From the NCBI RefSeq assembly GCF_030064675.1, contig NZ_CP116413.1, forward strand, positions 5,426,001-5,490,000: 64,000 nt of DNA, written 5' to 3'. Shown here piece by piece: positions 1 to 19,181 of the stretch. The notes under the pieces were generated by a model. It saw only the letters and a program-made list of their open reading frames with translations, was not told the origin of the DNA and searched no databases. Positions within the stretch are counted from its first letter, which is position 1. Each line of letters opens with the position of its first letter. The position numbers were made by a program, and so were the translations under genes. This stretch comes from Crossiella sp. CA-258035 (GTDB lineage: Bacteria > Actinomycetota > Actinomycetes > Mycobacteriales > Pseudonocardiaceae).

Positions 1-388
1 CGCGGGTCCTGGACTGCTCCAGCGGGCCGATCTCCTTGCTGGAGACCGCGAGCCGGGTCAGGTCGGCCTGCCGGGCGGCGTCGATGCGCTGCCCGACCAG
101 GTAGTCAACCGGCAGCGCGACCGCCTGGCCGAGCCGTCCGGCCAGGATGATCACGCCGAGGGCGATCAGCGGGAAGGTGGTCGACCGGCCACCGAGCAGC
201 GCGCCGACCAGTTCGTTGATCACCAGCGCGGTCAGCGCGGGCACGAAGCTGACCACCAGCAGCACCGCGACCAGGCCACCGACCGCGACCGGACCGGCAT
301 GGCGCAACTCGCTCAGCAGCATCAACCGATCACGCAGGATCGACACGATCTTCACCGGTTGTTGGTCCTTATCTGAACGAGTGGCCAT
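1..388 (-). CDS. ABC exporter, N-terminal membrane part (runs off left edge)
   Basis: Only the first 129 or so codons are present. After a basic lead (MATRSDKDQQ) come two hydrophobic stretches, about residues 31-58 and 72-97, then QRIDAARQADLTRL. This layout resembles the first helix pair and cytosolic loop of MsbA/MdlB-type exporter membrane domains. No Walker A, signature or Walker B motif lies inside the window, so the fused ATPase is assumed, not seen. The ATG at 388 has only a weak ribosome site. The gene diverges from the HPr-kinase-like gene at 550 across 161 bp. Its place at the edge of the cluster suggests product export. Confidence 0.6.
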   Translation of the reverse strand, partial: MATRSDKDQQPVKIVSILRDRLMLLSELRHAGPVAVGGLVAVLLVVSFVPALTALVINELVGALLGGRSTTFPLIALGVIILAGRLGQAVALPVDYLVGQRIDAARQADLTRLAVSSKEIGPLEQSRTR

Positions 389-549
389 CGCGCACCATGC
401 TAGATGACCGGAGTCGAACGGCGAACAGCGCTGATTGTTTCCCAGAACGCCCGTCGTTATGGTTCGGACCGACCCGGAAACACATTTGCCCGGTCCATTT
501 CTTGCTCATTCTTCACGGCATTCGACTGAAATACAGGAGGTGGTCGCAC

Positions 550-1575
550 GTGACCGCGGAATTGACCGGTGCGATTGGTCGGTACACCGTCCGCTCACGT
601 TTCGCGCGCACCGGACTGACGTGTCCGGCCCCCGTCGCCGAGCAGCTGCACCGCCTGGCCGCGCCCTACCTGGTCATCGAGCAGGGCGAGGCCGCGCCCG
701 GCGAGTGGCAGATGATCGCCGGTCAGGAACCCTCGGCGGAGGCGGTGCCGGAGTCGGTGACCGCGCAGGGCGAGGTGGCCGTGGAGTACGCGGTCGACCA
801 CCGGGCCAAGCAGCTGTTCCACCTCGCGCCGGTGAGCGAGGCGTGGGTGGTGCAGTCCCTGCTGCGGGCGAGCAGGGCGGTGCACCGCTCCGCGGCCAGC
901 CGGGCCGGTGTGCTGCTGCTGCACGCCGGACTGGTGCAGCTCAACGGGATCGGGGTGGCCCTGGTCGGCTCCAGCCGGGCGGGCAAGACCTCGCTGATCA
1001 TGGCCAGCGTGCTCAACGGCGCGGGCGTGATGGTGTGCAACGACGACGTGAGCCTGGTGGCCGAGCACGGCGAGGTGACCGGGGTGGGCTGGCCGCGGTC
1101 GATCTCGGTGCGGCTGGACAGCATGGACCTGCTCTTCGGCCGGGAGCGCTCGGTGGCCATCCAGTCCGAGCTGACCCACCCGGCCAACCAGACCCTGCTC
1201 AGCCTGCGCGAGTCCGGCGTCGAACCGCACGGCACCGCGCTGCTCTACCCCTGGGAGTACGCCGACCTGCTCGGCTCCAAGATCGGGCAGCACATGAAGG
1301 TCGACGCGCTGGTGCACCTGAGCCTGGCCGACGACCCCGCGGAGGCGGAGTTCCGGCCGATGGCCCAGGCCGAGAGCGGCGAGCTGCTGGCGAACCGGCT
1401 GCTGGACCTGCCCAACAAGCACCTCAACATCTTCGGCCACCAGCCCGCCCCCGGCAGCGCCGAGCGCACCCTGGAGGCGGTGAACTCGCTGCCGTCCTTC
1501 CGGTTCCGCTACGACTTCGCCGATGTGCGCAGGCAGGCGGACCGGCTCGGGGAAGAGCTCGCCAGCAGGCTCTGA
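550..1575 (+). CDS. HPr-kinase-like P-loop protein (kinase 1)
   Basis: A 341-residue protein with the C-terminal HPr kinase/phosphorylase fold. The P-loop is GSSRAGKTSL, followed about 25 residues later by VCNDDVSLV, matching the HprK element that carries the catalytic Asp pair. No N-terminal HprK regulatory domain is recognisable. Relatives occur in secondary-metabolite loci, for example lasso-peptide kinases that phosphorylate a peptide, so the substrate here is more likely a small molecule or carrier than HPr; that is inference. GTG 550 is preferred because GGAGG lies 9 nt upstream; the frame is open further up but without a ribosome site. A strong hairpin separates it from the convergent phosphatase gene. 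Confidence 0.72.
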   Translation: MTAELTGAIGRYTVRSRFARTGLTCPAPVAEQLHRLAAPYLVIEQGEAAPGEWQMIAGQEPSAEAVPESVTAQGEVAVEYAVDHRAKQLFHLAPVSEAWVVQSLLRASRAVHRSAASRAGVLLLHAGLVQLNGIGVALVGSSRAGKTSLIMASVLNGAGVMVCNDDVSLVAEHGEVTGVGWPRSISVRLDSMDLLFGRERSVAIQSELTHPANQTLLSLRESGVEPHGTALLYPWEYADLLGSKIGQHMKVDALVHLSLADDPAEAEFRPMAQAESGELLANRLLDLPNKHLNIFGHQPAPGSAERTLEAVNSLPSFRFRYDFADVRRQADRLGEELASRL

Positions 1576-1581
1576 ACCCCG

Positions 1582-1627
1582 CACCGCCCGCCTCGCCCGC
1601 GCTGGTCAGCCCGCGAGGTGGGCGGTG
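1582..1627. terminator. Convergent hairpin between kinase 1 and phosphatase
   Basis: Fourteen-base arms at 1582-1595 (CACCGCCCGCCTCG) and 1614-1627 (CGAGGTGGGCGGTG) pair with one G-T type mismatch. The right arm overlaps the end of the phosphatase gene. There is no T-run, as is common for actinomycete terminators. It lies between two converging genes and could serve both strands. Confidence 0.5.
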
Positions 1628-2235
1628 TCGCCCAGCACCCGCACCTGGCGGTTGTGGAAGTAGTCGTCCTGGCGCAGCACGGTGATGCTGCCCGACGGAC
1701 CGTTGAAGTTGGCGTAACCGGCCGACTCCAGCGGGAACTTGATCCAGTTGGCCACCACGAAGGTCAGCGCGCCGCCGTGGGTGACGATGATCTGGTGCTC
1801 GGCCGGGCGGGCCAGGATCTCGTCCATGACCTCGTAGATCCGCACCGCCATGTCGCCCTTGGTCTCCGCGCCGGGGATGTTCTCGTCGTGGAACATCCGC
1901 TCCCCCTCCGCGGGCGGCGGCACGAACCGCTCCCGCAGCCAGGGGTCCGGCCTGCCCTCGGCCTCGCCGTAGGACTTCTCCCGCAACCGCTTGTCCTGCA
2001 CCGGTTCCAGGCCGAACCGCGCGCCGATCGCCTGCGCGGTCTGCGCGGTGCGCTTGAGGTCGGAGGTGTACAGCTCCACCTCGGCGTCCGCCGGGATCTG
2101 GGCCCGCAGCGACTCCGCGATGGCCGCGGCCGCCGCCCTGCCCTTCTCGGTCAGCTCCGAGTCGTGCCAGCCACCCACCAGGTCCTGCACGTGGTGGGTG
2201 GCCTCGGGGTGGGCGACCACGTAGACGGTGCGCAC
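1606..2235 (-). CDS. Histidine-phosphatase-superfamily protein with altered RHG motif
   Basis: A 209-residue phosphoglycerate-mutase/histidine-phosphatase fold protein. YTSDLKRTAQTAQAIG supplies the internal phosphate-binding Arg and VTHGGALTFV the second active-site His. The usual N-terminal RHG(E/x)T reads AHPEATHH: the nucleophilic His is kept, but the first Arg and the Gly are lost. Such a change could alter phosphate binding or specificity. GTG 2235 has GGAG 8 nt upstream, 17 nt after the nucleotidyltransferase gene, so it is the last gene of the 4535->1606 operon. In context it may remove a phosphate added by the HprK-like kinases; this is inference. Confidence 0.75.
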   Translation of the reverse strand: MRTVYVVAHPEATHHVQDLVGGWHDSELTEKGRAAAAAIAESLRAQIPADAEVELYTSDLKRTAQTAQAIGARFGLEPVQDKRLREKSYGEAEGRPDPWLRERFVPPPAEGERMFHDENIPGAETKGDMAVRIYEVMDEILARPAEHQIIVTHGGALTFVVANWIKFPLESAGYANFNGPSGSITVLRQDDYFHNRQVRVLGDTAHLAG

Positions 2236-2251
2236 TGAAAGGTCTCCGTTC

Positions 2252-3358
2252 TCAGGTGTTCGACTTGTTGTTCTCGCCCGCGGGCGCGGACTGGCCGCTG
2301 GCCCACTCGCGCAACGGCAGGTGGTGTTCGGTCGAGCCCCGCCGCTCCATCGCGGTGAGCAGCTCGCGCAGCGGGGGCAGGCCGTCCTCGGCCTCGCGGG
2401 CGCGGAAACAGTACTCGTTGTCGATCTCGGCGTTCCAGCTCATCGTCTCGTGCAGCTCGCCCCTGAGCAGCTCCAGGAACCGCGCGCGGCTGGGGAAGTC
2501 GGCGACCTGGTCGCGCCGGAGGCGGATCTCGGCGTAGGCGGCGTCGATGAGGTCCAGCCAGGTCAGGATGGCCTCCGGTGCGTCCGCGGGATCGCCGATG
2601 CCGTAGGCGTTGAGCTGCCGGAACCGCTGGGACAGCTCCGACAGCGAGTCCGGCAGCCTGGTCAGGAAGCGGCTGAGGTACTTCGGGTTGCGGTTGGTGT
2701 TGCCGTAGGCGTGGGTCAGACCGCGGAAGGTGTCCACGCCGAGCTTGCGCGCGGCGACCAGCGCGGTCTCGTAGTCCTGCTGGGCCCACATGCCTGCCAG
2801 GTCGCGGAAGTCCGGGTAGCTGCCGACCGCGGTGCGGTAGGCGGTGAAGGCGAGCTGGTCACGGTGGATGCCGGCGCGGATCCGCTCGAACTCCTCGGCA
2901 TTCTGCAGCGCCACCCCGTAGCTCAGCCGGGACATCAGCCGGAAGTCCACCGAGGCGGCGGCGAAGCTGGAGGACTTGCGCGCCCGGTTGACCATGTGGT
3001 CGTAGAGCTTGTCGTGCGAGTCGAGCATGTGCTCGATCTGCGCCACGGTCCAGTACTCGACGTCCACCCCGAGCAGGCTCTCCGGCAGGTAGTCGAAGCT
3101 GGCCTTGACCCGGTCCCCGCTGGTGTAGAAGCGCATGTGCGCCTCCTTGGGGAAGGTGTCCCGGTGGAACCGGCCGTCGGCCTCGCGCGCGATCACGCAG
3201 AAGTCGAAGTCCGAGGACGGGGTGCCGGAGCCGTCCACCAGGGACCCGCCCAGCACCAGGATGTCGCTGTCCACCAGGTGGATCTTCTCGCTGATGGCCT
3301 GTTCGTCGAACTCGTCCATGCCGGGCACGACCGAGACGTGCTTGCGGAAAGAGTGCAC
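2252..3358 (-). CDS. Nucleotidyltransferase-fold protein
   Basis: About 368 residues. The N-terminal third carries a polymerase-beta-type nucleotidyltransferase signature: LVLGGSLVDGSG followed by SDFDFCVI, that is GGS and, ten residues later, Asp-x-Asp. A third acidic position may lie in LLGVDVEYW. The rest is mostly helical and matches no domain I recognise. The fold is shared by aminoglycoside nucleotidyltransferases and tRNA nucleotidyltransferases; the acceptor here is unknown. The start is ambiguous: GTG 3358 has AGAGAGG at 8 nt, while GTG 3367 is also in frame. It lies between the kinase 2 and phosphatase genes in one operon, which suggests a shared phosphorylated substrate. Confidence 0.62.
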   Translation of the reverse strand: MHSFRKHVSVVPGMDEFDEQAISEKIHLVDSDILVLGGSLVDGSGTPSSDFDFCVIAREADGRFHRDTFPKEAHMRFYTSGDRVKASFDYLPESLLGVDVEYWTVAQIEHMLDSHDKLYDHMVNRARKSSSFAAASVDFRLMSRLSYGVALQNAEEFERIRAGIHRDQLAFTAYRTAVGSYPDFRDLAGMWAQQDYETALVAARKLGVDTFRGLTHAYGNTNRNPKYLSRFLTRLPDSLSELSQRFRQLNAYGIGDPADAPEAILTWLDLIDAAYAEIRLRRDQVADFPSRARFLELLRGELHETMSWNAEIDNEYCFRAREAEDGLPPLRELLTAMERRGSTEHHLPLREWASGQSAPAGENNKSNT

Positions 3359-3386
3359 TCCTACCACCTCTCTTGACTTCGGCGCT

Positions 3387-4535
3387 TCAGCGTTCGGCGG
3401 TCACGGCACGGCGGAAGTCCGCGGCCAGCCTGGTCACGTCGGCGGCGTTGCCCACCGAGGAGCGCAGCAGCGGCAGCTTGGCGATGTCGGCCAGGAACGC
3501 CTCCAGCGTGGGCGGCGCGACCGGGTCGGAGCCGGTGACCCCGAGCCAGTCCTCGCCCTGCAGGTTGTCGTCCACGGAGAAGCAGTTGCGGCTGAGCACG
3601 TCCGCGGCGTGCTCCAGGCTGGCCTCGCCGAAGGCGTACGGCGCGCTGGGGTCGACCCGCGGGAAGAGCACCCCGGCCAGCGGGGCCTCCGGCACGATCG
3701 GCACCTCCAGGTAGCGCTCGACCTCCCTGGTGCTCATCTTGAGCTTGTCCTCGCCCATGAACCGGTCCCAGTCCGATCCGGCCGCCGGGAACCCGGCGTG
3801 CAGCGTCCAGCCCTGGAAGTCGGTGACGCCCATGACGTCCAGCGAGCCCTTGTTGATCGCCAGCGGCAGCGGGCAGGCGGTGGCCCGGTACTGCGCGCCC
3901 TCGCGGTCCAGGTGCATCCGGTCGTTGCCCATCCAGCCCGCGGGCGAGAGCAGCCGGGCCAGCGCGATCGCGGTGGTGGACTTGCCCGCGCCGGAGTCGC
4001 CGATCACCAGGTAGGCGCCGCCGTCGTGGGTGAAGGCCGAGGAGTGCAGCACCAGGGAGCCGCTGGCCTTGGCGAAGCGGGTGGCCAGGTCGCGCACGAT
4101 GCGGGTCAGCCACCGGTGCCCCAGCGGGGTCTCCGGCCGCACGATGGTCACCCGGTCCTGGGTGCGCAGCAGGGCGGCGGACTCGGTGTGGTTGACATCC
4201 CGCAACACGAACAGGGTGCCCTCGGCGGTGTCGAACCGGGGCAGCCGGTAGTTCCTGGTCAGCTCGTAGTCGCCCTCCCTGCCGGTGGCCGAGACCGAGC
4301 GGATCAGCTCGTCCACCTCGGCCTGCGGGCGGGCGTGGTCGACGATGGTCAGCTCCGCCGCCGGGCCGTCCGGGGCCTCGCGGACCTGGAACATCCCGGC
4401 CGGGTAGAACGTGTCGGCCAGCAGGTCCGCCGCCTCCGGCCGGTTCGTGGCCACCGCGAGCACGTGGCCCCACACGTCCAGGCGCCGGGTCGTGGCACCG
4501 GCCGGGATATTCGTGGTGAGCTGCCTGAGTTCCAC
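3387..4535 (-). CDS. HPr-kinase-like P-loop protein (kinase 2)
   Basis: A 382-residue protein and first gene of the kinase-nucleotidyltransferase-phosphatase operon. The P-loop VIGDSGAGKSTTAIAL is a full Walker A, preceded by LVLHSSAF as in HprK-related proteins. The following motif reads GNDRMHL, one acidic residue instead of the Asp-Asp of HprK and of kinase 1, so the two are not simple duplicates. The first 150 residues form a separate domain without recognised similarity. GTG 4535 follows AGGAG by 7 nt. The promoter upstream carries a perfect StrR-type box, making this the clearest predicted target of the cluster regulator. ATP-dependent phosphorylation of a cluster intermediate is the likely role; the substrate is unknown. 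Confidence 0.7.
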   Translation of the reverse strand: MELRQLTTNIPAGATTRRLDVWGHVLAVATNRPEAADLLADTFYPAGMFQVREAPDGPAAELTIVDHARPQAEVDELIRSVSATGREGDYELTRNYRLPRFDTAEGTLFVLRDVNHTESAALLRTQDRVTIVRPETPLGHRWLTRIVRDLATRFAKASGSLVLHSSAFTHDGGAYLVIGDSGAGKSTTAIALARLLSPAGWMGNDRMHLDREGAQYRATACPLPLAINKGSLDVMGVTDFQGWTLHAGFPAAGSDWDRFMGEDKLKMSTREVERYLEVPIVPEAPLAGVLFPRVDPSAPYAFGEASLEHAADVLSRNCFSVDDNLQGEDWLGVTGSDPVAPPTLEAFLADIAKLPLLRSSVGNAADVTRLAADFRRAVTAER

Positions 4536-4632
4536 CGAAGCGCTCCTATTGTGGGTTCAGTGTGGGTTTCGCGGCCCACATACACGAGAAATCAGAAATG
4601 TGCGACCGGCGCACTTGTGCTCACCGGCGGGA

Positions 4633-4762: not shown

Positions 4763-5530
4763 TCAGGCAGCGTGCGCCGACAACAGCCGGGCCAGCCCCC
4801 GGGGCATGACCCGGATCATCGCGGCCAGTGCCCCGTACCGCTTGCTGGGCACCACCAGCGGGCGGTTGCGGCGCAGCCCGCGCAGGCTGTCGGCGACGAT
4901 CTTCTCGCTGGGAGTCCAGAAGAACTCCGGCACGTCGTCGACCCCCTCGGTCATCTCGGTGTGCACGTAGCCGGGGCACACCGCGGTGATCCGCACCCCG
5001 AGCGGGCGGGCCCGCACGGCCAGGCCCTCGCTGAAGGAGAGCAGGAACGCCTTGCTCGCGCCGTAGGTCACGCTGGGCGGGAAGCCCGGCAGCAGCCCGG
5101 CCAGGGAGGCCACGTTGACGATGCCGCCGGCCTTGCGCTCGATCATCCCGGGCAGGGCGGCGTTGATCAGGCGCAGCGGCGCGACCGCGTTGGTGGCGAC
5201 CACGTCCTCCTCACCTGCGGGCGCCCCCTCCCCCAGCACGGTGTCGCCGCCGGGGATGCCGGCGTTGTTGATCAGCAGGTCGACCGGCCGGTTGGTGTCG
5301 GCCAGGCGCTTCTCGATCTGGCGCAGGTCGCCGTCGTCGGTGAGGTCGGCGGGCATGGTCTCCACGGTCACCTGGTACCGCTCGCGCAGCTCGGTGGCCA
5401 GCAGCTCGAGGCGTTCCGCCCGGCGGGCGACGATGACCAGGTCGCAGCCCCGCGCGGCGAGCACCCGCGCGTAGGCCTGCCCGATCCCGCTGGAGGCCCC
5501 GGTGACCAGCGCGGTGCGGTACTCGGTCAC
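4763..5530 (-). CDS. Short-chain dehydrogenase/reductase (SDR)
   Basis: A 255-residue classical SDR with all key motifs: TGASSGIG for NAD(P) binding, NNAG, and YGASK carrying the catalytic Tyr and Lys. GTG 5530 overlaps the stop of the adenylation-condensation gene (GTGA), so the two are translationally coupled. NAD(P)H-dependent reduction or oxidation of a carbonyl/alcohol in the cluster product, or reductive release from the neighbouring assembly protein, are both possible. Sequence alone does not choose. About 230 bp follow before the next gene. Confidence 0.85.
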   Translation of the reverse strand: MTEYRTALVTGASSGIGQAYARVLAARGCDLVIVARRAERLELLATELRERYQVTVETMPADLTDDGDLRQIEKRLADTNRPVDLLINNAGIPGGDTVLGEGAPAGEEDVVATNAVAPLRLINAALPGMIERKAGGIVNVASLAGLLPGFPPSVTYGASKAFLLSFSEGLAVRARPLGVRITAVCPGYVHTEMTEGVDDVPEFFWTPSEKIVADSLRGLRRNRPLVVPSKRYGALAAMIRVMPRGLARLLSAHAA

Positions 5531-8500
5531 GACCGCTCCTCCACCGGGCCGGTGTCCTGGCCCAGCCGGAACGCGATGTGCCGCAAGGACAACGGCGACA
5601 TCAGGTCGGCCGCGGAGATCCCGGTGCAGCCGTTCTTGGCCAGCCGCCCCAGCACCGCGGGGATGTCCAGGAACCGGCCGCCCGCACCGGCGTAGCAGTC
5701 CGCGAGGTCGATCCGGGCTTCCGGGTAGGTGGCGGCCAGCGCCTCGGCCAGCGCCTCCTCGGCCGGGGTCTGCGCGGTGCCGTCGCCGTGCCGCCCATCT
5801 CCTTGGCGCACAACGGGTTGGTCCGCCCAGTCCGCCCCCTCAGGTGGTGCCTCGGCGTAGCAGCGGTACCAGCCGGGGGCCATGATCAACGGGTTCAGGT
5901 AGAGCTGTTCCAGCAGGAAGTCGCGCAACTCGGGCGGTCCCAGGTCGGGGTCCTCGGTCACCACGTGCGCCAGCAGCCGGTCGCCGTCCGCGCCGGGTTC
6001 GACCAGGACCTCGGCCTGGGTGACGCCGGGGCAGGACTCCAGGGTCTCCTTGGTCAGCTCCAGGCTCACCCAGTCCTGGCCGACCTTGGCCCAGCCCGGG
6101 TTCAGGGTCGCGGTGGCCGTGCCGGTCAGCCGGGCGGCGAGGGCCTCGCGTTCCCGCAGCACCCCTTCCAGCCCGGCGAGCAGCTCCTTCGACTCCTCCA
6201 GGCTCAGCAGGTGGTCCCCGGCGCGCAGGCCCACCTCCATCACGTCATCGGCCGGGTTGACGTGCACGTAGAGCGTGTCGCACAGCCCGTCCCAGGTCTC
6301 GGCCACCACCTCGTCCGGCGGGAACGTCGCGGGGTCCTCGGTGACCGCCGCCGAGTTGTGCGGCCGGTAGTTCAGGTGCAGCGCCGCGTTGGGCCGCAGG
6401 CCGCGCCGGGCCACCTCGCGGGCCTCCACCTCCAGCAGCACGGCCGGCTCGAAGTGCCCGTACCGGAACGCCCGCAGGCCCGCCGACCAGGTGCGGCGCA
6501 GCAGCGTGCGCAGGTCGGGGCCGCCGGAGGTGTCCACGATGATCTGGCCCATCAGCGCGTAGCAGCCCACGCTGGCCGCCTGCGCCTCGTCGAACCGGTT
6601 GGAGATCACCGTCTCGATGGCGATCCGCTCGCTGCCGGAGCGCTGCGCCACCAGCACCGCGAACGCGGCGGTGACCACGGTGAACGGGCTCAGCTCGTAC
6701 TCCGCGCAGACCTTCTGCAGCTCCGCCAGCAGCGAGCGCGACCGGTGGATGACGTAGTGGGTGCGCAGCTGCGGCAGGTCGCCGCAGTAGGGCGCGAGCA
6801 GGTTCGCCGAGGCGGCCGCCTCCGGCTTCGCCCAGTGCGCGCGGGCCCGCTGCGCGATGGCCTGGTACTCCTCGGTGGCCTCCATCGCCGCCTGGTCCAG
6901 CGGGTGCCAGCGCGGCTCGCCGAGCTCGGCCGACCGCCGCTGCGCCGTGGCCGCCATCAGCTCGCCCAGCTCCTCGGCCACGATGTCGGCGCCGCGGGCG
7001 TCCACCGAGATGTGGTGCACGAAGGCCACCAGCACCACCGGCTTCGCCTCGCGGGTGAACACCACGGCGCGGTAAGGCCATTCGCGGTCCAGGTCGAACT
7101 CATCGCCGATGAGCTCGACGGCCAGCTCGATCGCGGCCTCCGGCTCGACCTCCTCCTCCGGCAGCTCCCGCACCACGATCACCGGCGCTTCGGCCGCGCA
7201 CACCGACTGCACGGGTTCCGTTGTGGAGTAACGGGTTCGCAGCGCCTCGTGCCGGTCGACCAGGGTGGCCAGCGCGGCCTCGACGTCAGCGAGGGCCAGC
7301 CCCTCCGGCACCGGGCAGGCGCGCTTCATGGTCAGCGACATGGACAGGAACCGCTCCTCGGGATCGAGTTGCTGTTCGAGCCAATGCCATTGCTGGGCCC
7401 AGTTCAGCGGTCCAGATCGAACGACGGTGACAGACACAAGCCCTCCTCGGGACTGACTGATCCTTCTTCGCCCCGCGCGAGCACCGGGCAGGTGTTCGGA
7501 GGCCACTGTGGACAGCGGCAACGGCTCCGCGATCCGTTGTCCGCCATGGGTGAGGTAGTTCGCGGGCAGTCCGCGCCCGCCGGAGGGCCAGTTGCCGTCC
7601 CTGGTTCCCAGCGGGGTGCCGTTCCGGTCCTCGCCGTAGATCATGGCGGTCGGCGCCCGTTCGGTGAACAGCGGTTCGGACGGGTCCGCGCGCACCCGTT
7701 CGGCCTCGGCGGCGAGCAGGTCGCGCAGCAGCCGGGTGCCCTCGCGCGGGTCGAGCGGGCCGTGCTCGGGCAGCTGGTCCACCACCAGCAGCTGGTTGGG
7801 TTGTTCGTACGGAGCCAGGTGCGGTTCGATCCGCGCCCGCCAGTACCTGGCCTCGTGCCCGCCGCGGTCGGCGACCAGGAACACCAGCTGGCAGCCCCGG
7901 CGCTCGTCCTCGATCGGCACCACCGACACCGGCCGCCCGCACCGCCGCGCCTTGCGGGCCAGCGCCTCCGGGTAGAGGGTGTGGCCGAGGCGGTGCACCG
8001 CGGCGCGCCTGCCGAGCACGTGCAGGTTGCCCGCGCCGTCCCGGAAGCCGAGGTCGCCGGTGCGGTAGACCTCCTGCCCGAACGGCGCTACCGTGCCGTC
8101 CTCGGCGAGGTAGCCCGCCATCAAACCGGTGGTGCGCACGCAGATCTCGCCGGTCTGCCCGGCCGCTGCCTCGCGCTCGCCCGCGCGGATCTCCACCCGC
8201 ACGCCCTCCAGCGGCCGCCCGCAGCCCACCGGGTTGTCCACGCAGGACAGCGCGATGTTGCCGGCCTCGGTGCTGCCGTAGCCGTCCAGCAGCGGCGCGC
8301 CCAGCAGCCGCCGGAACCGCTGCGCCACCGAGGGCGCCAGCGGCGCGCCGCCGACGCACCACATTCGCACCGCGGCAATACCGGCGCGCAGTTCTTCCCG
8401 GCGTTCGAGCACATTGAGCAAACTGTGGTAAGTGGCCGGGGTGGCGTCCACCACGGTGGCCATGACTTCACCGGTCAGGCCGTGGTCGACGCGGTTCAAC

Positions 8501-10941: not shown

Positions 10942-12200
10942 GCGACCCGGCCGCACTCGCCCGGCGCTACGGCACCCCCGCCTACCTCTACGACCTCGCG
11001 CAGGTGCGGGCCGCGCACGCGCAGCTCTCCGCCGCGCTGCCGCGGCCCAGCACCCTGCACTACTCGCTCAAGGCCAACCCGCACCCGGAGCTGGTGCGGC
11101 AGCTGGCTGAGCTCGGCTGCCACGCGGAGGTCTCCTCCACCGGCGAGCTGGACACCGCGGTGCTGGCCGGGGTGCCCGCGCCGGACATCCTGCACACCGG
11201 CCCCGGCAAGACCCCTGCCGAGCTGCGGCACGCGCTCAGCCTCGGCGTCCGCCGGTTCTCCGTGGAGTCCGCCGCCCAGCTGCGCCTGCTCGACGAGATC
11301 GCCGGGCAGAGCCAGGTCCGGGTGTCCTGCCTGCTGCGGGTGAACGCCGGGCGCGGCGCGGGCGGGAAGCTGCGGATGGGCGGGGTCTCCCAGTTCGGCA
11401 TCGAGCTGGACCAGCTGCTGGCCGAGCCGGACGCCTTCCGCGGCACCGATTTCGCCGTGGTGAACGGGTTGCACCTGTTCCCGGTGTCCGGAGTGGACGA
11501 TCCGGCCGCGCTGCTGGAGACCTTCGCGATCAGCGCGCGGGCCGCCCGGCAGGTCGCCGAGGCCGGCTTCGAGCTGGCCGAGGTGGACCTGGGCGGCGGG
11601 TTCGCCACGCCCTACCTCCGCCCTGGCGACCCGGTCGACTACCGGGTGCTGCGCGGCGAGCTGGAGTCCCTGCTGGACGCCGAGCTGCCCGGCTGGCGCG
11701 AGCAGCGACCCCGGATCTCCTTCGAGTCCGGCCGCTACCTGGTCGGCTCCTGCGGCACCTACGTGTGCGCGGTGACCGACGTGAAGGCCAACGGCGAGCG
11801 CACCTTCGTGGTGCTCGACGGCGGCATCAACCACCTCGGCGGGCTCTCCGGCATCGGCCGGATGCTGCCCACCAGGGCGGCGGCCGAGATCCTGACTTCG
11901 CGCGCAGAATCCAGCCCGAAGGTTCCGGTGGACCTGGTCGGCCCGTTGTGCACCCCGGCCGACGTGCTGGCCAGGAACCTCGAACTCCCCGAGGTGCGCG
12001 CCGGGGACCTGATCGCGATCCGCAACGCGGGCGCCTACGGGCTCAGCGCGAGCCTGCTCGGCTTCCTCAGCCACCCGGCGCCGGTGGAGCTCGTGCTGGA
12101 CGGCGGGACCGTCCGCTCGGCGAGCGCGATCGCGACCGTGCGCACCGAAGTCCATGCCGCACAAGACCGAGCAGGAGCGATGAGTGGTGACCCGAACTAA
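10938..12200 (+). CDS. Fold-type III PLP-dependent amino-acid decarboxylase
   Basis: A 420-residue enzyme of the diaminopimelate/ornithine decarboxylase family. HYSLKANPHP near residue 45 holds the PLP-binding Lys, and GPLCTPADV near the C-terminus has the conserved Cys-x-x-x-Asp from the partner subunit. Glycine-rich LADVDLGGGF-like sequence (ELAEVDLGGGF) precedes the phosphate site. Family members BtrK and VinO decarboxylate an amino acid while it is bound to a carrier protein. Its position between an AMP ligase and a carrier supports that mode here. The ATG overlaps the ligase stop, with GAGGAG 5 nt upstream. It overlaps the next gene by 17 bp. Confidence 0.85.
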   Translation: MSDPAALARRYGTPAYLYDLAQVRAAHAQLSAALPRPSTLHYSLKANPHPELVRQLAELGCHAEVSSTGELDTAVLAGVPAPDILHTGPGKTPAELRHALSLGVRRFSVESAAQLRLLDEIAGQSQVRVSCLLRVNAGRGAGGKLRMGGVSQFGIELDQLLAEPDAFRGTDFAVVNGLHLFPVSGVDDPAALLETFAISARAARQVAEAGFELAEVDLGGGFATPYLRPGDPVDYRVLRGELESLLDAELPGWREQRPRISFESGRYLVGSCGTYVCAVTDVKANGERTFVVLDGGINHLGGLSGIGRMLPTRAAAEILTSRAESSPKVPVDLVGPLCTPADVLARNLELPEVRAGDLIAIRNAGAYGLSASLLGFLSHPAPVELVLDGGTVRSASAIATVRTEVHAAQDRAGAMSGDPN

Positions 12201-13380
12201 GTCCTTGCCCACCGGAGAACGCAGCGGCCACGACCTTGCCAACGTGGTGGCCGTGGCCGCCGAGCACGCCGCCGAGGTGGACAGCGGCGGCCGGTTCCCG
12301 GTGGAGGCGCTGGCCGCGCTGCGCGCCAGCGGCCTGATGGGCCTGCTGGTGCCGGTCGAGCACGGCGGCCTGGGCGGCGGCCTCACCGACCTGGTCGAGG
12401 TGGCCGGTGAGCTGGGCGGCGCCTGCCTGTCCACCTCGCTGATCTGGACCATGCACTGCCAGCAGGTCGACGTGCTGGTCCGGCACGCCCAGCCGGAGCT
12501 GCGCGAGCGGCTGCTCCCCCGGATCGCCGCCGGCGAGGTCTACCTCGGCTCGGTGACCACCGAGTCCACCGTCGGCGGGCACCTGCTCACCAGCGAGAGC
12601 CCGCTGCACGCCGAGCAGGGCCACTACCGGCTGACCAGGCGCGCGCCGATCGTCACCGGCGCCGCGCACGCCGACGGCTTCCTGATCAAGATGCTGGCCT
12701 CACCCGAGGCGGCCGCGCAGGAGGTCAGCATGGTCTACCTGGACCGCGCCGACCTGGACATCGAGGTGCGCGGGGCCTGGGACACCCTGGGCATGCGCGG
12801 GGTGGAGAACCTCGAGCTGACGCTGACCGGCCAGGTCACCGATGAGCGGCTGATCGGCGGCCGCGGCAAGTTCCGCGAGATCGCGGTGGAGTGCATGGGG
12901 CCGATCGCGCACCTGAGCTGGTCCGCCTCCTGGCTCGGCGCGACCAGGAAGGTCTGGTCCGCGCTGCTGGCGCACCTGCGGCGGCCTGCCAGCAAGATCG
13001 ACCTGCGGGACTCGCTGACCGCGGTCCGGGTGGCCCGGGTGCGGGCCAAGCTGGAGGCGGTCAGCGCCTACCTGCACACGGTGCGCGCCGAGGTCGAGCG
13101 GCACCGGGCGCAGGGCACTTCACTGGGCTCCTCCGCCACCCAGATCCACCTGAACACGCTCAAGGTGCTGGCCGCGGAGGAGTGCCTGGCCGCGGCCACC
13201 GCGATGATCCAGCTCGCCGGGCTGGACACCGGCTACCGGCGTGACTCCCCCGTGCCGTTGGAGCGGCTGCTGCGCGACCTGACCGCGGCCAGCCTGACCT
13301 ACTCCGACACCCGGCTGCTCACCGCGAACGGCGCGCTGAGTGTGCTCGACCCCGCCGTGACTCTGGCCGGCGCCAACTGA
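12184..13380 (+). CDS. Acyl-CoA-dehydrogenase-like flavoenzyme
   Basis: A 398-residue protein with the usual three-part acyl-CoA dehydrogenase layout: helical N-terminus with GLLVPVEHGGLGG, a beta domain with GSVTTESTVGG, and a C-terminal helical domain. In this setting it probably oxidises an aminoacyl or acyl group on the neighbouring carrier protein, as PltE/RedW-type enzymes do for prolyl carriers. The decarboxylase next door argues against simple pyrrole formation. GTG 12184 lies inside the end of the decarboxylase gene with GGAG 6 nt upstream; GTG 12187 is an alternative. The stop overlaps the first possible start of the carrier gene. Confidence 0.82.
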   Translation: MVTRTKSLPTGERSGHDLANVVAVAAEHAAEVDSGGRFPVEALAALRASGLMGLLVPVEHGGLGGGLTDLVEVAGELGGACLSTSLIWTMHCQQVDVLVRHAQPELRERLLPRIAAGEVYLGSVTTESTVGGHLLTSESPLHAEQGHYRLTRRAPIVTGAAHADGFLIKMLASPEAAAQEVSMVYLDRADLDIEVRGAWDTLGMRGVENLELTLTGQVTDERLIGGRGKFREIAVECMGPIAHLSWSASWLGATRKVWSALLAHLRRPASKIDLRDSLTAVRVARVRAKLEAVSAYLHTVRAEVERHRAQGTSLGSSATQIHLNTLKVLAAEECLAAATAMIQLAGLDTGYRRDSPVPLERLLRDLTAASLTYSDTRLLTANGALSVLDPAVTLAGAN

Positions 13381-13394
13381 TGGAAGGACTGGAC

Positions 13395-13643
13395 ATGGAA
13401 TGGGAACCCGGCTTCGAGAAGATCCTCCGGCAGCACCTGCCCGCACTGGGCGCGGAGGCGGAGCTGCCTGAGGCGGCCGGCCTGGCGGACCTCGGCCTGG
13501 ACTCGCTGCAGACGGTGGACCTGCTGCTGGAGCTGGAGGAGCACTACGGCATCAGCTTCCCGGACGAGGAGCTCTCCGCGGAGACCTTCGCGACCGCGGG
13601 CGCGCTGTGGAAGGTGATCTCCGGACTCGCGGATCGCTCCTGA
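13395..13643 (+). CDS. Stand-alone acyl/peptidyl carrier protein
   Basis: An 82-residue carrier protein. DLGLDSLQTVDLLLEL contains the phosphopantetheine-accepting Ser (about residue 37) in a standard context. It is probably loaded by the AMP ligase and serves the decarboxylase and dehydrogenase of the same operon, then the condensation protein. It is the only carrier in the cluster with an intact Ser. ATG 13395 follows AAGGA by 6 nt; ATG 13380, overlapping the previous stop as TGATG, would add five residues. It is the last gene before a strong terminator. Confidence 0.9.
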   Translation: MEWEPGFEKILRQHLPALGAEAELPEAAGLADLGLDSLQTVDLLLELEEHYGISFPDEELSAETFATAGALWKVISGLADRS

Positions 13644-13656
13644 ACCACCGCACGGC

Positions 13657-13704
13657 AAAAGCGCCTGTGCACTCCCGCCTCCCGGGGGTGCACAGGCGCT
13701 TTTT
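13657..13704. terminator. Bidirectional intrinsic terminator
   Basis: Sixteen-base perfect arms at 13657-13672 (AAAAGCGCCTGTGCAC) and 13688-13703, with a 15-nt loop, followed by a T-run on the plus strand and flanked by an A-run that acts as a T-run on the minus strand. It ends the ligase-carrier operon and the convergent inositol operon. Such a U-tract terminator is rare in DNA this rich in GC. Confidence 0.9.
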
Positions 13705-13788
13705 GTTGTCCTGCTGGGAAATTCCGCGCATGGCAATGCGGCCGGTGTCGCTGGGACACCGACCGCACTGGTTCGAGAGTCGCCAGGC

Positions 13789-14892
13789 TCAGCTGGCCTG
13801 GACGGCGCCCTCGATGAACCCGGTGAACTTCTCCAGGCCGACCGACTCCGGCGCGCCGAAACGCGGGCGCTTGAACAGGAACGGGCACACCTCGTCGAGC
13901 ACACCGGCGTGCTTGCGGTCCAGCGCCACCTTGGCGACCCTGGCCGCGTTGGCCAGCACACCGGCGGCGTTCGGGCTGTCCTCGACCTCCATCCGGATCT
14001 CGATGTTGAGCTGGGAGTCCAGCACCGAGGTGGCCTCGATCCGCAGGAAGCAGGTCTTGGTGTCGCCGAGGAACTCGACGTAACCGTTGGGACCGGCCAT
14101 CACCTTGGTGGCGTCGATGCCCGCCGCCTTCAGCGCGCTGCCCTTGGAACGGATCTTGCCGGCCGCCCGGACCGGGTCGGACAGGTTGAGGAAGTCGGTG
14201 TTGCCACCGATGTTGAGCTGGTAGGTGTTGGTGATCGCCAGGTTCCTGGACTGCAACAGCTCCAGCAGCGCGGTGTGCAGCGTGGTCGCGCCCAGGTGGC
14301 TGCGCAGGTCATCACCCAGCAGCGGCACCGAGTTCGCCTCGAACAGCGCCACCAGCTCGGGGTCGTGCGCCACCGGCTCCGGCGTCGCGTTGACGAAGGC
14401 CACCCCGGCCAGCGCCGCGGCGCGGGCGTAGGCCTGCACCGCCGCGGTGGCACCGGTGGGCAGCACGCACAGCAGCACCTCGGCCCGCACCTCGCGCAGG
14501 CGCTGGGTGACGTGCTCGACGGTGATGTTCGCGCAGTCCGGGTGCGGGTCGATGGCCGCGGCCAGCTTGCCCTCGATGCCGTCCAGCAGCGGCCCGGCCT
14601 CCACGGTCAGGCCCTTGGGCTCGACGTGCACGTGCGCCACCGCCGCGGTGGGCGCGGTGACGATCGCCTTGGCGAAGTCCAGGCCGACCTTGCGCTTGTC
14701 GACCTCGAAGGCTGCCACGAAGTTCACATCGGAAAGGCGGTAGCCGCCGATTTCCTGGTACATGATGCCGTGCAGCTGTTCGGAACTGCGGCCGGCCAGC
14801 TCGACGGTTTGCGCGATGCTGGAAGCACAGCCGCCGACTCCGGCCAGGGCGACTCGCACCTCAGCGGAACCGGTGGGTTTGGCGTCAGTCAT
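13789..14892 (-). CDS. myo-Inositol-1-phosphate synthase
   Basis: A 367-residue protein of the actinobacterial inositol-1-phosphate synthase size class. VALAGVGGCASS is the NAD-binding loop, QLNIGGNTDFLNL the family signature, and KVMAGPNGYVEFLGDTK the active-site region. It converts glucose 6-phosphate to inositol 1-phosphate with internal NAD redox. ATG 14892 has AAAGGA at 8 nt, 30 nt after the PHP phosphatase gene, so it is the last gene of the regulator-led operon. A second, cluster-borne copy of this enzyme marks inositol-derived antibiotics such as hygromycin A; here that is an analogy. Confidence 0.88.
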   Translation of the reverse strand: MTDAKPTGSAEVRVALAGVGGCASSIAQTVELAGRSSEQLHGIMYQEIGGYRLSDVNFVAAFEVDKRKVGLDFAKAIVTAPTAAVAHVHVEPKGLTVEAGPLLDGIEGKLAAAIDPHPDCANITVEHVTQRLREVRAEVLLCVLPTGATAAVQAYARAAALAGVAFVNATPEPVAHDPELVALFEANSVPLLGDDLRSHLGATTLHTALLELLQSRNLAITNTYQLNIGGNTDFLNLSDPVRAAGKIRSKGSALKAAGIDATKVMAGPNGYVEFLGDTKTCFLRIEATSVLDSQLNIEIRMEVEDSPNAAGVLANAARVAKVALDRKHAGVLDEVCPFLFKRPRFGAPESVGLEKFTGFIEGAVQAS

Positions 14893-14922
14893 ATTGCGAT
14901 TCCTTTGTCCTGATGGCAGCTG

Positions 14923-15732
14923 CTACAGCGGCAGACGGATCCGACGTCGTTGTTCGAAGACGTACCACTCCCGGAAGCCCATTTCCTTCAACTGCTTCCG
15001 GACCAGCTCGTGCTCTTCCCCTACTCGTTCCGGGTCGTGCGCATCCGAGCCGAAGGTCATCTTGACCCCTCGACGCCGGGCGCGTTCCAGCAGGTCATCG
15101 GCTGGATACCAACCACCGCAGTCCTTGGTCTTGCCTGAGGTGTTCACCTCGACGACCACATCGGCCGCCACGATCGCGTCAAGCATTGTGTCGACCGCCG
15201 GCGTGTCGATTTCCGCGATTTCCGGACAGACCGCCTTGATCACGTCGATGTGGCCAAGGATATCGAACATTCCGGCACTGGCCGAACGCGCGACCAGGTC
15301 GCAGTAATCTTCCTTGGCCTTCCGCAGGTCAGCCTTGCTCGCTCCTTGCCAGCGCTCCCTGCGGAACAGGTCGACACCGTCGAGCACGTGCACCGAACCG
15401 ATCACATAATCCAATGGATACCGGGCGTAGATGCTCGCGTAAAGCTCCGCGTGCTCCGGGAAGTAGTCGGACTCGACCCCGACCAGGACTTTGATCCGAT
15501 CGCGGTATTCCGCGCGCAGCCGGATGGCCTCGTCCAGGTAGGCCGGGAACTCCGACTTCGCCATCGCCACCCCCGGCAGCGGCTGCTCGGCCGGGTCGGC
15601 GAAGAACGGCGAATGGTCCGACACCCCGATGATGTCCAGGCCGTGGCTGATCGCCGCCTCGATGTAGCTGCGCAGCTCGCCCCGCGCGTGCCCGCACCGG
15701 GAATGGTGGGTGTGCAGGTCGAAGGTGGTCAT
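14923..15732 (-). CDS. PHP-domain phosphatase (histinol-phosphatase-like)
   Basis: A 269-residue PHP metallophosphatase with the full set of metal ligand motifs: DLHTHHSRCGH, GVSDHSPF, GVESDYFPEH, GSVHVLDG, LGHIDV, EVNTSG and FGSDAHDPERVG. The closest functional family is the HisK-type histidinol phosphatase. Because it is sandwiched between a dehydrogenase and inositol-1-phosphate synthase, it probably dephosphorylates a cyclitol phosphate instead of histidinol phosphate. ATG 15732 overlaps the stop of the dehydrogenase gene (ATGA). No inositol-monophosphatase-family gene is present, so it would fill that gap. Confidence 0.82.
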   Translation of the reverse strand: MTTFDLHTHHSRCGHARGELRSYIEAAISHGLDIIGVSDHSPFFADPAEQPLPGVAMAKSEFPAYLDEAIRLRAEYRDRIKVLVGVESDYFPEHAELYASIYARYPLDYVIGSVHVLDGVDLFRRERWQGASKADLRKAKEDYCDLVARSASAGMFDILGHIDVIKAVCPEIAEIDTPAVDTMLDAIVAADVVVEVNTSGKTKDCGGWYPADDLLERARRRGVKMTFGSDAHDPERVGEEHELVRKQLKEMGFREWYVFEQRRRIRLPL

Positions 15733-16502
15733 AGCGCGGTGTAGCCCCCGTCGACCATCAGGTTCTCCCCGGTCACGTAGCTGGCCTCGGCGGAGAGCAG
15801 GAACGCGATGGTGGAGGCGATTTCCGAGGGGTCGGCGGTGCGCTTGAGGATGTGCTTGCCGCCGATGTCCGGGTGCTGGTCCGCCTGTGCCCTGGTCAGG
15901 CCGAGCTCCTCGCGGTGGTAGCGCTCGTTGTTGGCGTTCCAGACCGTGCCCGGGTTCACCGCGTTGACCCTGATCCCGGAATCGGCCAGGTCCAGCGCCA
16001 TGCACCGGGTCATGTTGGCCACCGCCGCCTTGGTGGCGTTGTAGGTGAGGTATCCGGGCTGGGCGATGTGGCCGGAAATGGAGGCGATGTTGACGATCGA
16101 GCCGCCACCGGCCCGGGCCATGTGCGGCGCCGCGTGCTTCACGCACAGCGCCTGCCCCATGATGTTGACGTCCATGATGCGACGCCATTCGTCCACGGTC
16201 GCCTCGAGGCCGCGCATGATGAACACCGCGGCGCAGTTCACCAGGAAGTCGACCCGGCCGAACTGCTCGGCGGTCCCGGTGACCGCGGCGATGACCGACT
16301 CCTCGTCGGCGACATCGGTGTGGGCGTACCAGACCCGCCCACCGGCCTCGGTCAGTTCCGCTTCGGCGGCCTTGCCGTAATCGTCGCTGACATCCGCGAT
16401 GGTGACCGCGACCCCCTCGGCCACCAGCCGGTCCACGGTCGCGCGGCCAATTCCCTGGGCGCCACCGGTGACGATCGCCACCTTGCCGTCAAGCCCCTGC
16501 AT
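15729..16502 (-). CDS. Short-chain dehydrogenase, probable cyclitol/sugar dehydrogenase
   Basis: A 257-residue classical SDR: TGGAQGIG, NCAAVF and YNATK with catalytic Tyr and Lys. It ends in a typical YVTGENLMVDGGYTAL tail. Best resemblance is to polyol and 3-oxoacyl-carrier reductases that use NAD(P). In the inositol operon the natural guess is oxidation of inositol to an inosose, normally done by a GFO/IDH enzyme, so this would be an unrelated replacement. ATG 16502 has GGAAGG upstream and is preferred over GTG 16517. The gene starts 34 nt after the regulator and overlaps the PHP gene by 4 nt. Confidence 0.82.
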   Translation of the reverse strand: MQGLDGKVAIVTGGAQGIGRATVDRLVAEGVAVTIADVSDDYGKAAEAELTEAGGRVWYAHTDVADEESVIAAVTGTAEQFGRVDFLVNCAAVFIMRGLEATVDEWRRIMDVNIMGQALCVKHAAPHMARAGGGSIVNIASISGHIAQPGYLTYNATKAAVANMTRCMALDLADSGIRVNAVNPGTVWNANNERYHREELGLTRAQADQHPDIGGKHILKRTADPSEIASTIAFLLSAEASYVTGENLMVDGGYTAL

Positions 16503-16535
16503 TCTCTCGCCTTCCACTGCCGGTGTAGTGCGCGG

Positions 16536-17549
16536 TCACTCTTTTTCCAGCCGGTTCGCCAATTCGTTCCACGTTTCCGCGTTGACCCGCGCCAGCTTCG
16601 CGATGATTCCCGAGCAGTGCTCCGGGAAGTCGTTGACCAACTGGTCCACCTGCGACAGGTCGACGGTGTGGAAGTTGAGCCAGCGCAGCAGCTGGCGGCC
16701 CTTTTCCTTCGAACGGATCGAAGGGTCCTTCTGCAGGATGTCCATGATCTGGCCCCGGTCCGGCGCCTCCCGCCGCGGCGGGGTGGCGACCTCGGCCCTC
16801 GGCTGCTTCTTCGGCTGGGTGAGACCGCGGTGCCTGGCCGGCACCGGATCCTCGCCCTGCCGCAGGCGCTCGCGGACGTCCCACACGGTCGACGGGGACA
16901 CCCCGGCGGCCCTGGCGATCTCCCGGACCGAGGCCTCGGGGTTGCCCCGCATCAGCTCGCTGGCCAGCTGACGACCGGCGGAGGCGTTGAGCGGGCGCAC
17001 CCGGCCGTCCCGGCTCACCCTGGCGTTCGACTGCGGACTTTCCTCGCTCGAACGCCGCCGGATCGCGGCCACGGTCTTGGCCGAGAGCCCGGACAGGGTG
17101 GCGATCATGCGGTCGGACCACTGCGGCCGGATACCGATGATGCGGGTGGCCGCGGCCGTGCGGTCGTTCAGCGACAGCGGCAGGCCGTGCGTGACATTGG
17201 CCTCCACCGCGAAGACGAAGGCGTCCTGCTCGCCGCCCTCGAAGAATCGCACCTCGATCTCGTCCCAGCCGCGGAGAACGGCCGCGCTGAGCCGGTGCAT
17301 GCCATCGATGACCCGCATGGTGGAGCGGTGCACGATGATCGGCGGCAAAGGTGCCTCGGATTCGGCGAGGACTTTGACGTGCTCCTTGTTCTCACCACTC
17401 AGCCGGGGCGAGTCAGACGGCCGCAGCGAGCTGATCGGAATGATCTCGGTTGGACTTCGCTCCAGCTGACGAATGCGCCACGAGTTCGGCGCGACTTCTT
17501 CCAGGCCGGAGCCAGACCCCAAAGGTTGAACAGGGTCAGAAATACTCAT
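16536..17549 (-). CDS. StrR-type ParB-like pathway activator
   Basis: A 337-residue protein of the StrR family. The N-terminal ParB/sulfiredoxin-like domain (about 20-110) contains PISSLRPSDSPRLSGEN and PPIIVHRSTMRVIDGMHRL, hallmark sequences of StrR/KasT-type activators of aminoglycoside genes. A helix-turn-helix, SVREIARAAGVSPSTVWDV, lies in the second half. It should bind GTTCGACtG-N11-type boxes; one perfect box is at 4650-4678 and one good one is inside this gene at 17025-17053. It is the first gene of the operon with SDR, PHP phosphatase and inositol-phosphate synthase. ATG 17549 follows GGGGA by 4 nt. Confidence 0.88.
   Translation of the reverse strand: MSISDPVQPLGSGSGLEEVAPNSWRIRQLERSPTEIIPISSLRPSDSPRLSGENKEHVKVLAESEAPLPPIIVHRSTMRVIDGMHRLSAAVLRGWDEIEVRFFEGGEQDAFVFAVEANVTHGLPLSLNDRTAAATRIIGIRPQWSDRMIATLSGLSAKTVAAIRRRSSEESPQSNARVSRDGRVRPLNASAGRQLASELMRGNPEASVREIARAAGVSPSTVWDVRERLRQGEDPVPARHRGLTQPKKQPRAEVATPPRREAPDRGQIMDILQKDPSIRSKEKGRQLLRWLNFHTVDLSQVDQLVNDFPEHCSGIIAKLARVNAETWNELANRLEKE
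17025..17053. promoter_or_regulatory. Intragenic StrR-type box
   Basis: Left half GTTCGACTG matches the StrR consensus exactly; right half CGCTCGAAC matches 7 of 9; spacing is exactly 11 bp. The palindrome extends two more bases each side (GC...GC). It lies about 500 bp into the coding region of the regulator itself, so it may give autoregulation or be a decoy. Confidence 0.6.
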
Positions 17550-19170: not shown

Positions 19171-19181
19171 TCCAGTCCCTC

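Follow-up and report, generated by a model that had tools for sequence, protein, structure and literature searches.

The 64,000-nucleotide stretch of DNA analysed here (the window) spans positions 5426001-5490000 of the 9.17-Mb single-contig genome of Crossiella sp. CA-258035 (G000), and its left edge cuts through a conserved gene cluster of biosynthetic type. A preliminary description, made from the window alone, had proposed such a cluster at 1-17549. All the gene families that it named were found there as open frames; those picked by the gene caller, which missed the PHP gene, have a GC3 (GC content at third codon positions) of 0.87-0.98. The cluster proved real and its proposed extent incomplete: comparison of the upstream DNA with related loci adds approximately 14.4 kb left of the window edge, for a total span of approximately 32 kb from position -14368 to 17549. 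The right end is set by a regulator gene at 17549, the last gene with a counterpart in a related locus. In Crossiella sp. SN42 (G086) the gene order from this regulator to the N-terminal half of a transketolase is the same, with protein identities of 93-100%.

Four genes define what we call the core: a cyclitol-phosphate synthase homologue (cluster Ino1), a short-chain dehydrogenase (SDR2), a homologue of archaeal-type S-adenosylmethionine (SAM) synthetases (cluster MAT) and a homologue of nucleoside diphosphate (NDP) kinases (cluster NDK). The cluster Ino1, SDR2 and the cluster NDK accompany the cluster MAT in 10/10 loci, which belong to the Actinomycetota, Bacillota and Pseudomonadota. Five of these loci are the window's own or were reached through the HPr-kinase-like protein HprKA or the nucleotidyltransferase NTf (Crossiella, S. 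pyxinae (Spyx), H27-H5 (SH27), Umezawaea and SolW), and five were found via MAT (G347, G500, G586, Parageobacillus and Paraburkholderia). Crossiella SN42, being near-identical, was left out of the ten, as was G392 (85%), which lies at a contig end, its neighbours not seen.

The searches behind these loci differed in reach. NTf matched in four of 249 family genomes (the window genome, SN42, Umezawaea tangerina (G060) at 70% and one weak match), and HprKB, the second HprK-like protein, matched in 25 of the 249, closely only in the first three of these. A scan of 84,980 species genomes with a pattern from the HprKA alignment returned seven loci: Crossiella SN42, two Streptomyces (62-64%) and Umezawaea, plus three more distant ones. 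Among the latter, SolW (L051) carries the core, while L050 and L052 hold only an HprK-like gene, joined in L052 by a homologue of the adenylation-condensation (A-C) protein. MAT matched in 37/392 Streptomyces, six at 61-85% identity; in a phylum sample it matched in 25/396 genomes, where only the window's genome reached the cluster score (735 bits) and the others stayed at or below 287. Among 72,556 plasmid records of PLSDB, 27 gave a MAT match, and of the five neighbourhoods opened (one via NTf) two contain the core. The plasmid of Parageobacillus caldoxylosilyticus ER4B carries the cluster Ino1, MAT and NDK, DegT-like frames, SDR2, HprK, an AAA kinase and APH, together with PqqD, HAD (annotated as a HAD-IIB hydrolase), SurE and NUDIX genes; that of Paraburkholderia sp. 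PGU19 carries the cluster Ino1, MAT and NDK, SDR2 and SDRup3. The DegT-like aminotransferase of Parageobacillus (L124, 11597-12867) appears as two overlapping unannotated frames, and an IS256 transposase lies inside this locus.

Around the core the gene content varies. At least one HprK-like gene is present in 9/10 loci and two in 8/10; APH occurs in 9/10, PHP in 7/10, and asparagine synthetase and NTf in 5/10 each (a weak NTf fragment was seen in Parageobacillus). The acyl-CoA-dehydrogenase-like enzyme, free carrier protein, AMP-forming ligase, PhyH-like and HAD genes were found in three loci, Crossiella, SolW and G500 (whose ligase is only 30% identical), and the decarboxylase to Crossiella and SolW. 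The five loci found via MAT have the cluster Ino1, SDR2 and NDK in 5/5, HprK and APH in 4/5 each and two HprK genes in 3/5; in G586 the parts around Ino1 and MAT lie about 14 kb apart. The suggestion that two HprK-like genes travel with an Ino1-like gene was thus borne out in eight of the ten loci, window included, and in three of the five found via MAT. As a control, hidden Markov models (HMMs) of the cluster families were run on 104 kb of other sequence (window 20-64 kb, L059+L060 and L067) and gave three matches only, two to SDR2 (28 and 77 bits) and one to the dehydrogenase (34 bits). The HMMs were built with members from G642, G586, SolW and G500, so matches there arise partly by construction; the tblastn matches at these four loci are independent of the HMMs, and the plasmid loci L124 and L125 were not part of them. 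Some type II HprK genes missed by the gene caller were recovered by tblastn or HMM.

Two arrangements can be told apart. Type I loci (Spyx, SH27, G347 and Umezawaea) add a nucleotidyltransferase and an asparagine synthetase to the core; type II loci (SolW and G500) add ligase, dehydrogenase, carrier and PhyH-like genes; Crossiella holds both sets. The left, middle and right parts of 1-17549, described earlier as one cluster, recur elsewhere in a manner between joint and independent occurrence: left and right without the middle in type I, middle and right with diverged HprK genes in type II. A chance adjacency, in Crossiella, of a type I cluster on the left and a type II cluster on the right would be another explanation: each set occurs alone, and the Crossiella MAT falls with type I, its Ino1 with SolW and Umezawaea. 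We consider this explanation improbable: the Crossiella locus has single copies of Ino1, SDR2, PHP, MAT and NDK, the two sets interlock, and the order seen in SN42 is kept over the regulator-to-transketolase stretch.

Table 1. Genes of the Crossiella cluster in window coordinates; negative positions lie upstream of the window
Feature	Position	Strand	Remarks
Cluster MAT (archaeal-type SAM-synthetase homologue)	-14368..-13178		upstream of window
Cluster NDK (NDP-kinase homologue)	-13184..-12189		upstream of window
APH-like kinase	-12192..-11158		by Pfam APH in the Umezawaea homologue
AAA_18 kinase	-11281..-10670		upstream of window
Asparagine synthetase (AsnS)	-10577..-8838		glutaminase domain with N-terminal Cys kept
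NTP_transf_5 protein	-8774..-7653		upstream of window
HAD protein	-7648..-6860		upstream of window
Transketolase C half	between HAD and -5895	-	
Transketolase N half	-5895..-5113		split transketolase
PhyH-like gene	-5116..-4235		sole family match weak (ectoine hydroxylase)
Short-chain dehydrogenase (SDR)	-4142..-3456		upstream of window
ABC2 (second ABC exporter gene)	upstream of ABC exporter subunit 1		outside window
ABC exporter subunit 1	1..388, on to -1477 outside window	-	621 aa; PF00005
HprKA (HPr-kinase/PEPCK-fold kinase)	550..1575	+	frame open from 397; AGGAGG before GTG at 550
HisP (histidine phosphatase, branch 1)	1606..2235	-	alpha-ribazole phosphatase-like; PF00300, E 2e-37
NTf (ANT-like nucleotidyltransferase)	2252..3367	-	NTP_transf_2, 23.4 bits (cut-off 21)
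HprKB (second HprK-like kinase)	3387..4535	-	P-loop GDSGAGKST
SDR1 (short-chain dehydrogenase)	4763..5530	-	Pfam/NCBIfam
A-C protein (adenylation + condensation)	5527..9132	-	condensation motif HHISVD
Lig (AMP-forming ligase)	9316 or 9373..10941	+	TIGR03098-like; core motifs intact
Dec (PLP fold-III decarboxylase)	about 10929..12200	+	TIGR03099/LysA-like
ACAD (acyl-CoA-dehydrogenase-like)	12184..13380	+	53% in SolW and G500
CP (free carrier protein)	13380..13643	+	LDSL serine intact
Cluster Ino1 (cyclitol-phosphate synthase homologue)	13789..14892	-	outside inositol-phosphate-synthase and Ari2 groups
PHP phosphatase	14923..15732	-	HisJ family; Pfam/NCBIfam
SDR2 (short-chain dehydrogenase)	15729..16517	-	in 10/10 cluster MAT loci
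Regulator	16536..17549	-	helix-turn-helix; ParB-like N-terminus by eye

Family calls on the window proteins were made with Pfam and NCBIfam. To the right of the cluster, 18124-24002 holds a LacI regulator, a sugar ABC permease and a GH35 beta-galactosidase, an ordinary sugar-use locus.

The cluster MAT is homologous over nearly its whole length to the structure of the archaeal-type enzyme TkMAT (PDB code 4l4q, 217 bits). According to the TkMAT report (PMC3853416), His33 is catalytic, Tyr271 stacks on the adenine, Asp201 and Asp283 hold the ribose, and the methionine carboxylate is held by His62, Asn64 and Asn161. We aligned 68 rows (67 distinct sequences, G420 standing twice), three archaeal, ten from the cluster loci and groups of 25, 24 and five other bacterial ones. 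The position of Asn64 is Trp in all ten cluster proteins and in 0/57 of the other archaeal-type MATs (56 Asn, 1 Gln), and His33, His62, Asn161, Asp201, Tyr271 and Asp283 are kept in 10/10. All ten also have Asn-Leu/Ile-Leu/Cys instead of Ser-Phe-Gly at 164-166, Val or Ile at 284 and a different flexible loop. As read from the alignment, these changes cluster at the substrate pocket, and the methionine site is altered at one ligand with catalytic and nucleoside-binding residues retained. The lack of the methionine-carboxylate Asn argues against a plain supply of SAM. In 8/8 actinobacterial loci the MAT gene overlaps or adjoins the NDK gene, to within 15 bases; in the two plasmid loci other genes sit between them.

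Pocket changes of this kind could also mark a resistant target copy, with a product that inhibits SAM synthetase; antibiotic clusters are known to carry additional copies of the enzymes that their products target. Such a role is very improbable, however, as the housekeeping MetK of bacteria belongs to a different family, the cluster MAT, NDK and Ino1 keep together across phyla with MAT and NDK adjoining in every actinobacterial locus, and loss of a methionine-carboxylate ligand would hurt functional replacement.

The presence of just any archaeal-type MAT was dropped as a cluster marker, as Streptomyces copies at 40-42% identity keep Asn64 without HprK or Ino1 nearby. Copies at this level occur in 23/392 Streptomyces, with three more at 37-38%; Asn64 is kept in those of the two groups that were aligned, and no HprK or Ino1 was found within 20 kb of the MAT genes of G420, G573, G544, G523, G453 and G398. 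In G477, G381 and G536 the MAT gene adjoins an HprK-like gene, with Gfo/Idh and TIM-barrel isomerase genes at some of these loci, and its product keeps Asn64. MAT beside an HprK-like gene forms a separate family in Streptomyces (L117-L119); the annotated loci include Gfo/Idh dehydrogenase, TIM-barrel isomerase, F420-ligase-like and shikimate-dehydrogenase genes, and the MATs of this family keep Asn64.

For the cluster NDK, a profile of eight proteins gave 37 NDP kinases among 38 PDB matches, the best with an E-value of 0.0044, and Pfam returned no match for the S. pyxinae and Umezawaea proteins. The assignment is based on the conserved residue pattern and not on the E-value alone: the Lys of the KPE motif, Tyr, Asn, the catalytic His, Ser and Glu of NDP kinases are kept in 10/10 sequences and two Arg in 9/10 each, and the catalytic His stands in an N-x-x-H-x-S motif in all ten.

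The best PDB matches of the cluster Ino1 are the inositol-phosphate synthase of M. tuberculosis (PDB code 1gr0, 238 bits; 39% identity) and Ari2 (PDB code 6k96, 207 bits; 41%), and the protein is 39% identical to the inositol-phosphate synthase of its own genome. In the alignment, the positions of A. fulgidus K274, K278, K306 and K367, the catalytic lysines of inositol-phosphate synthase, are Lys in the window protein. Two lysines of Ino1 that were first read as differing from inositol-phosphate synthase fell, in the alignment to A. fulgidus, at positions other than the catalytic ones, and that reading was given up. An unrooted tree with few references splits the ten cluster sequences from the inositol and Ari types together (support 0.976), although, with no outgroup, this does not prove a single clade. 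Judged against two references of each type, ten of the residues invariant in the cluster sequences are common only to the Ari type, nine only to the inositol type, and nine are unique. The distances of Ino1 to inositol-phosphate synthase and to Ari2 are roughly equal, and ring size is not decidable from its sequence. Inositol supply, as proposed earlier, is one possible role: on identity and residue counts the protein stands midway between the two types, and the inositol or aminocyclitol label may, or may not, fit its product.

Ari2, as described in PMC11188666, is an orthologue of myo-inositol-1-phosphate synthase (MIPS) from the aristeromycin pathway that forms a five-membered cyclitol phosphate. 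If the cluster Ino1 did the same, and the AAA_18 kinase and NDK completed a carbocyclic nucleotide triphosphate, the product could be a carbocyclic nucleoside related to aristeromycin. The second rank of Ari2 among the PDB matches, the ten residues common to the Ari type and the nucleotide-type kinases in the cluster fit this idea, and a primary CH2 on a five-membered ring would suit MAT chemistry, which is established for ATP. We nevertheless judge it unlikely, given the nine residues that point the other way, the equidistance of Ino1 and a scan of the cluster genes that turned up neither a phosphoribosyltransferase nor a purine gene. Moreover, the Ari2 orthologue loci (2/392 Streptomyces; G565 and G322) showed no MAT, NDK, HprK or APH in 32-35 kb. 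The idea of an HprK kinase in the aristeromycin cluster found no support, the HMM having detected none at these two loci.

The preliminary description had counted two HprK-like kinases in the window, which agrees with our results on different grounds for each. The AlphaFold model of HprKA (pLDDT, the predicted local distance difference test, 88.9) superimposes on HPr kinase (PDB code 1knx) with Z = 14.9 and a root-mean-square deviation of 2.1 over 135 residues, and on phosphoenolpyruvate carboxykinase (PEPCK) with Z of about 14 over about 280 residues. The model thus assigns HprKA to the HPr kinase/PEPCK fold, with a P-loop. HprKB is placed in the HprK fold solely by its profile-profile match to HprKA (hhalign probability 97.6, E 4e-12, 223 columns); among the PDB matches of its own profile, HprK ranked behind ABC ATPases and reached no better than E 0.99. 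Neither of the two proteins matched HPr_kinase_C in Pfam, and their matches to TIGR04352 and TIGR04355 were weak (E 4e-4 and 7e-4). In Umezawaea a third HprK-like gene (L043, 10252-11514; about 32% to HprKA) adjoins the cluster.

The genes of Lig, Dec, ACAD and CP follow one another directly, all in the same orientation. The ligase-decarboxylase-dehydrogenase-carrier set named earlier is upheld as a module; it recurs complete in SolW and in part in G500, which has the dehydrogenase, the carrier and the weaker 30% ligase without a decarboxylase. SolW also shows condensation-like matches and a PhyH-like homologue. By eye, the A-C protein has no recognisable A10 lysine and ends in a degenerate carrier-like region without the serine, and CP is therefore probably the only working carrier nearby.

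NTf is 68-71% identical across the four type I loci, and its C-terminal tail (about PAGENNKS; window 2252-2330) is conserved in 5/5 loci. Its model (pLDDT 65) matches the aminoglycoside nucleotidyltransferase ANT 6un8 (Foldseek E 6e-5), with Z of about 9 in a second structure comparison, in which a HEPN domain ranks level with aminoglycoside nucleotidyltransferases. Such a likeness would suit an enzyme that modifies a cyclitol or a sugar, either for resistance or within the pathway. The regulator, tentatively called StrR-type from traits of that family, has a helix-turn-helix and one homologue in a related locus (G500, 42%). No ParB match in Pfam and no PDB match was obtained, and the gene is present in 2/8 actinobacterial loci (Crossiella and G500) with no HMM match in the two plasmid loci.

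These genes invite comparison with a StrR-regulated aminocyclitol or inositol antibiotic, in which Ino1 would make myo-inositol-1-phosphate, PHP dephosphorylate it and SDR2 oxidise it, the ring would be amidated by a carrier-made amino acid, the kinases and NTf would protect the producer, and MAT would supply SAM. Apart from the regulator, the catalytic lysine positions and the fold shared by NTf (from a poor model) and aminoglycoside nucleotidyltransferases, the aminotransferases of related loci speak for it: DegT-type in SolW, the DegT-like frame of Parageobacillus (by eye) and class III in G642. It is doubtful, all the same, as no aminotransferase, amidinotransferase or glycosyltransferase was found among the Crossiella cluster genes scanned, the StrR-type gene was seen in only 2/8 actinobacterial loci, Ino1 is only 39% identical to the genome's own inositol-phosphate synthase, and the altered MAT argues against plain SAM supply. 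Self-protection by phosphate chemistry, as proposed earlier, fails to account for the most conserved partners, NDK and the remodelled MAT, both outside the window.

We instead favour, at about even chances, a cluster family, described nowhere that we found, which poly-phosphorylates a cyclitol or nucleotide-like intermediate, uses triphosphate as a leaving group and adds a carrier-made acyl branch. Ino1, by family and lysine positions, would cyclise a hexose phosphate to a cyclitol phosphate, and SDR2 would oxidise or reduce the ring. The two HprK-type kinases, the APH and AAA_18 kinases and NDK, whose families, motifs and conservation are described above, may phosphorylate an acceptor to the di- or triphosphate. 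By analogy with the action of SAM synthetase on ATP, the cluster MAT could then use a triphosphate as leaving group in a reaction whose second partner is not free methionine, and the PHP, HisP and HAD phosphatases might trim intermediates. In the carrier branch, the families suggest that CP receives an amino acid from Lig, that Dec and ACAD in turn decarboxylate and oxidise it, that the PhyH-type enzyme performs a hydroxylation and that release onto the core falls to the condensation domain of the A-C protein. The ANT-like NTf and HisP are a possible adenylylation/dephosphorylation pair for self-protection, and the two ABC proteins are predicted to export the product.

In a distant locus that appears to repeat this logic, G642 (L109, 8504-16818), an Archaeoglobus-like inositol-phosphate synthase stands together with a MAT (33%), two APH, HprK, a short-chain dehydrogenase and a class III aminotransferase, and we count this locus in favour of the poly-phosphorylation scheme. 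Several points weigh against that scheme. Position 64 of the G642 MAT is Gln instead of Trp, and that locus showed no NDK; the adenine and ribose residues kept in the cluster MAT mean that it may simply use ATP, with no need of a cluster-made triphosphate; and we recognised nothing among the Crossiella genes, methyltransferase or otherwise, that would evidently consume a SAM analogue. The NDK profile match is weak in E-value. For the window and the four loci reached through HprK or NTf, half of the ten, the HprK counts are set by selection; SolW, G500 and G586 have second HprK copies that match only weakly (39-51 bits); and the 25 kb seen of Paraburkholderia contain no HprK, APH or PHP. Finally, because type I and type II sets are found apart, Crossiella may hold two pathways side by side.

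More tentatively, and with less than an even chance of being right, the four-gene core could embody an undescribed logic: dedicated kinases and the NDP-kinase homologue would raise a cyclitol to the triphosphate, and a neofunctionalised SAM synthetase would let a nucleophile that is not methionine displace the triphosphate; the products, SAM-like or cyclitol-sulfonium/amine compounds, would act as cofactor mimics. As regards the earlier view that the combination is undescribed, no cluster with this core was named among the matches listed in our searches of titles and abstract starts, and the word is used here in that sense. The recurrence of the core in three bacterial phyla suggests that it may represent a new biosynthetic route and not a local oddity. 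Should the cluster MAT turn out to be something other than a SAM synthetase, it would give a natural example of an enzyme applying SAM-synthetase chemistry to a different partner, with use in biocatalysis and possibly a new type of antimetabolite. Sequence signatures define the core, namely a MAT with Trp at TkMAT position 64 whose neighbours include homologues of NDP kinase and of short MIPS, so that genomes of different phyla can be mined for it directly. Streptomyces G347 (8.8-Mb contig) offers a type I set of 13 genes suited to heterologous expression.

Several known systems share parts of this cluster. HPr kinase/phosphatase and PEPCK have the fold and P-loop in common with HprKA. HprK-like kinases also occur in lasso-peptide clusters, which resemble this locus in having an NTP_transf_5 protein nearby; a lasso-peptide cluster was dropped because the asparagine synthetase has a glutaminase domain with its N-terminal Cys, and no protease-type or lasso maturation family was recognised among the cluster genes scanned, short open reading frames (precursor) not being searched. 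BtrJ, BtrK and BtrI of butirosin biosynthesis are an AMP ligase, a PLP (pyridoxal phosphate) fold-III decarboxylase and a carrier; genes of the same three families stand side by side in Crossiella, which adds ACAD. NDP kinases share with the cluster NDK the order of Lys, Tyr, Arg, Asn and the His-x-Ser motif, but have about 150 residues, against about 335 with a large insertion and a weak profile E-value here. The aristeromycin pathway (PMC11188666) likewise has a cluster-borne short MIPS homologue, Ari2, with the same catalytic lysine positions as Ino1; unlike the present family, the Ari2 orthologue loci are without MAT, NDK, HprK and APH, and Ino1 falls outside the Ari group. With TkMAT (PMC3853416), the cluster MAT has the catalytic His, the adenine-stacking Tyr and the diol-binding Asp in common, and all ten cluster proteins differ from it in the change of Asn64 to Trp, the altered 164-166 segment and the flexible loop.

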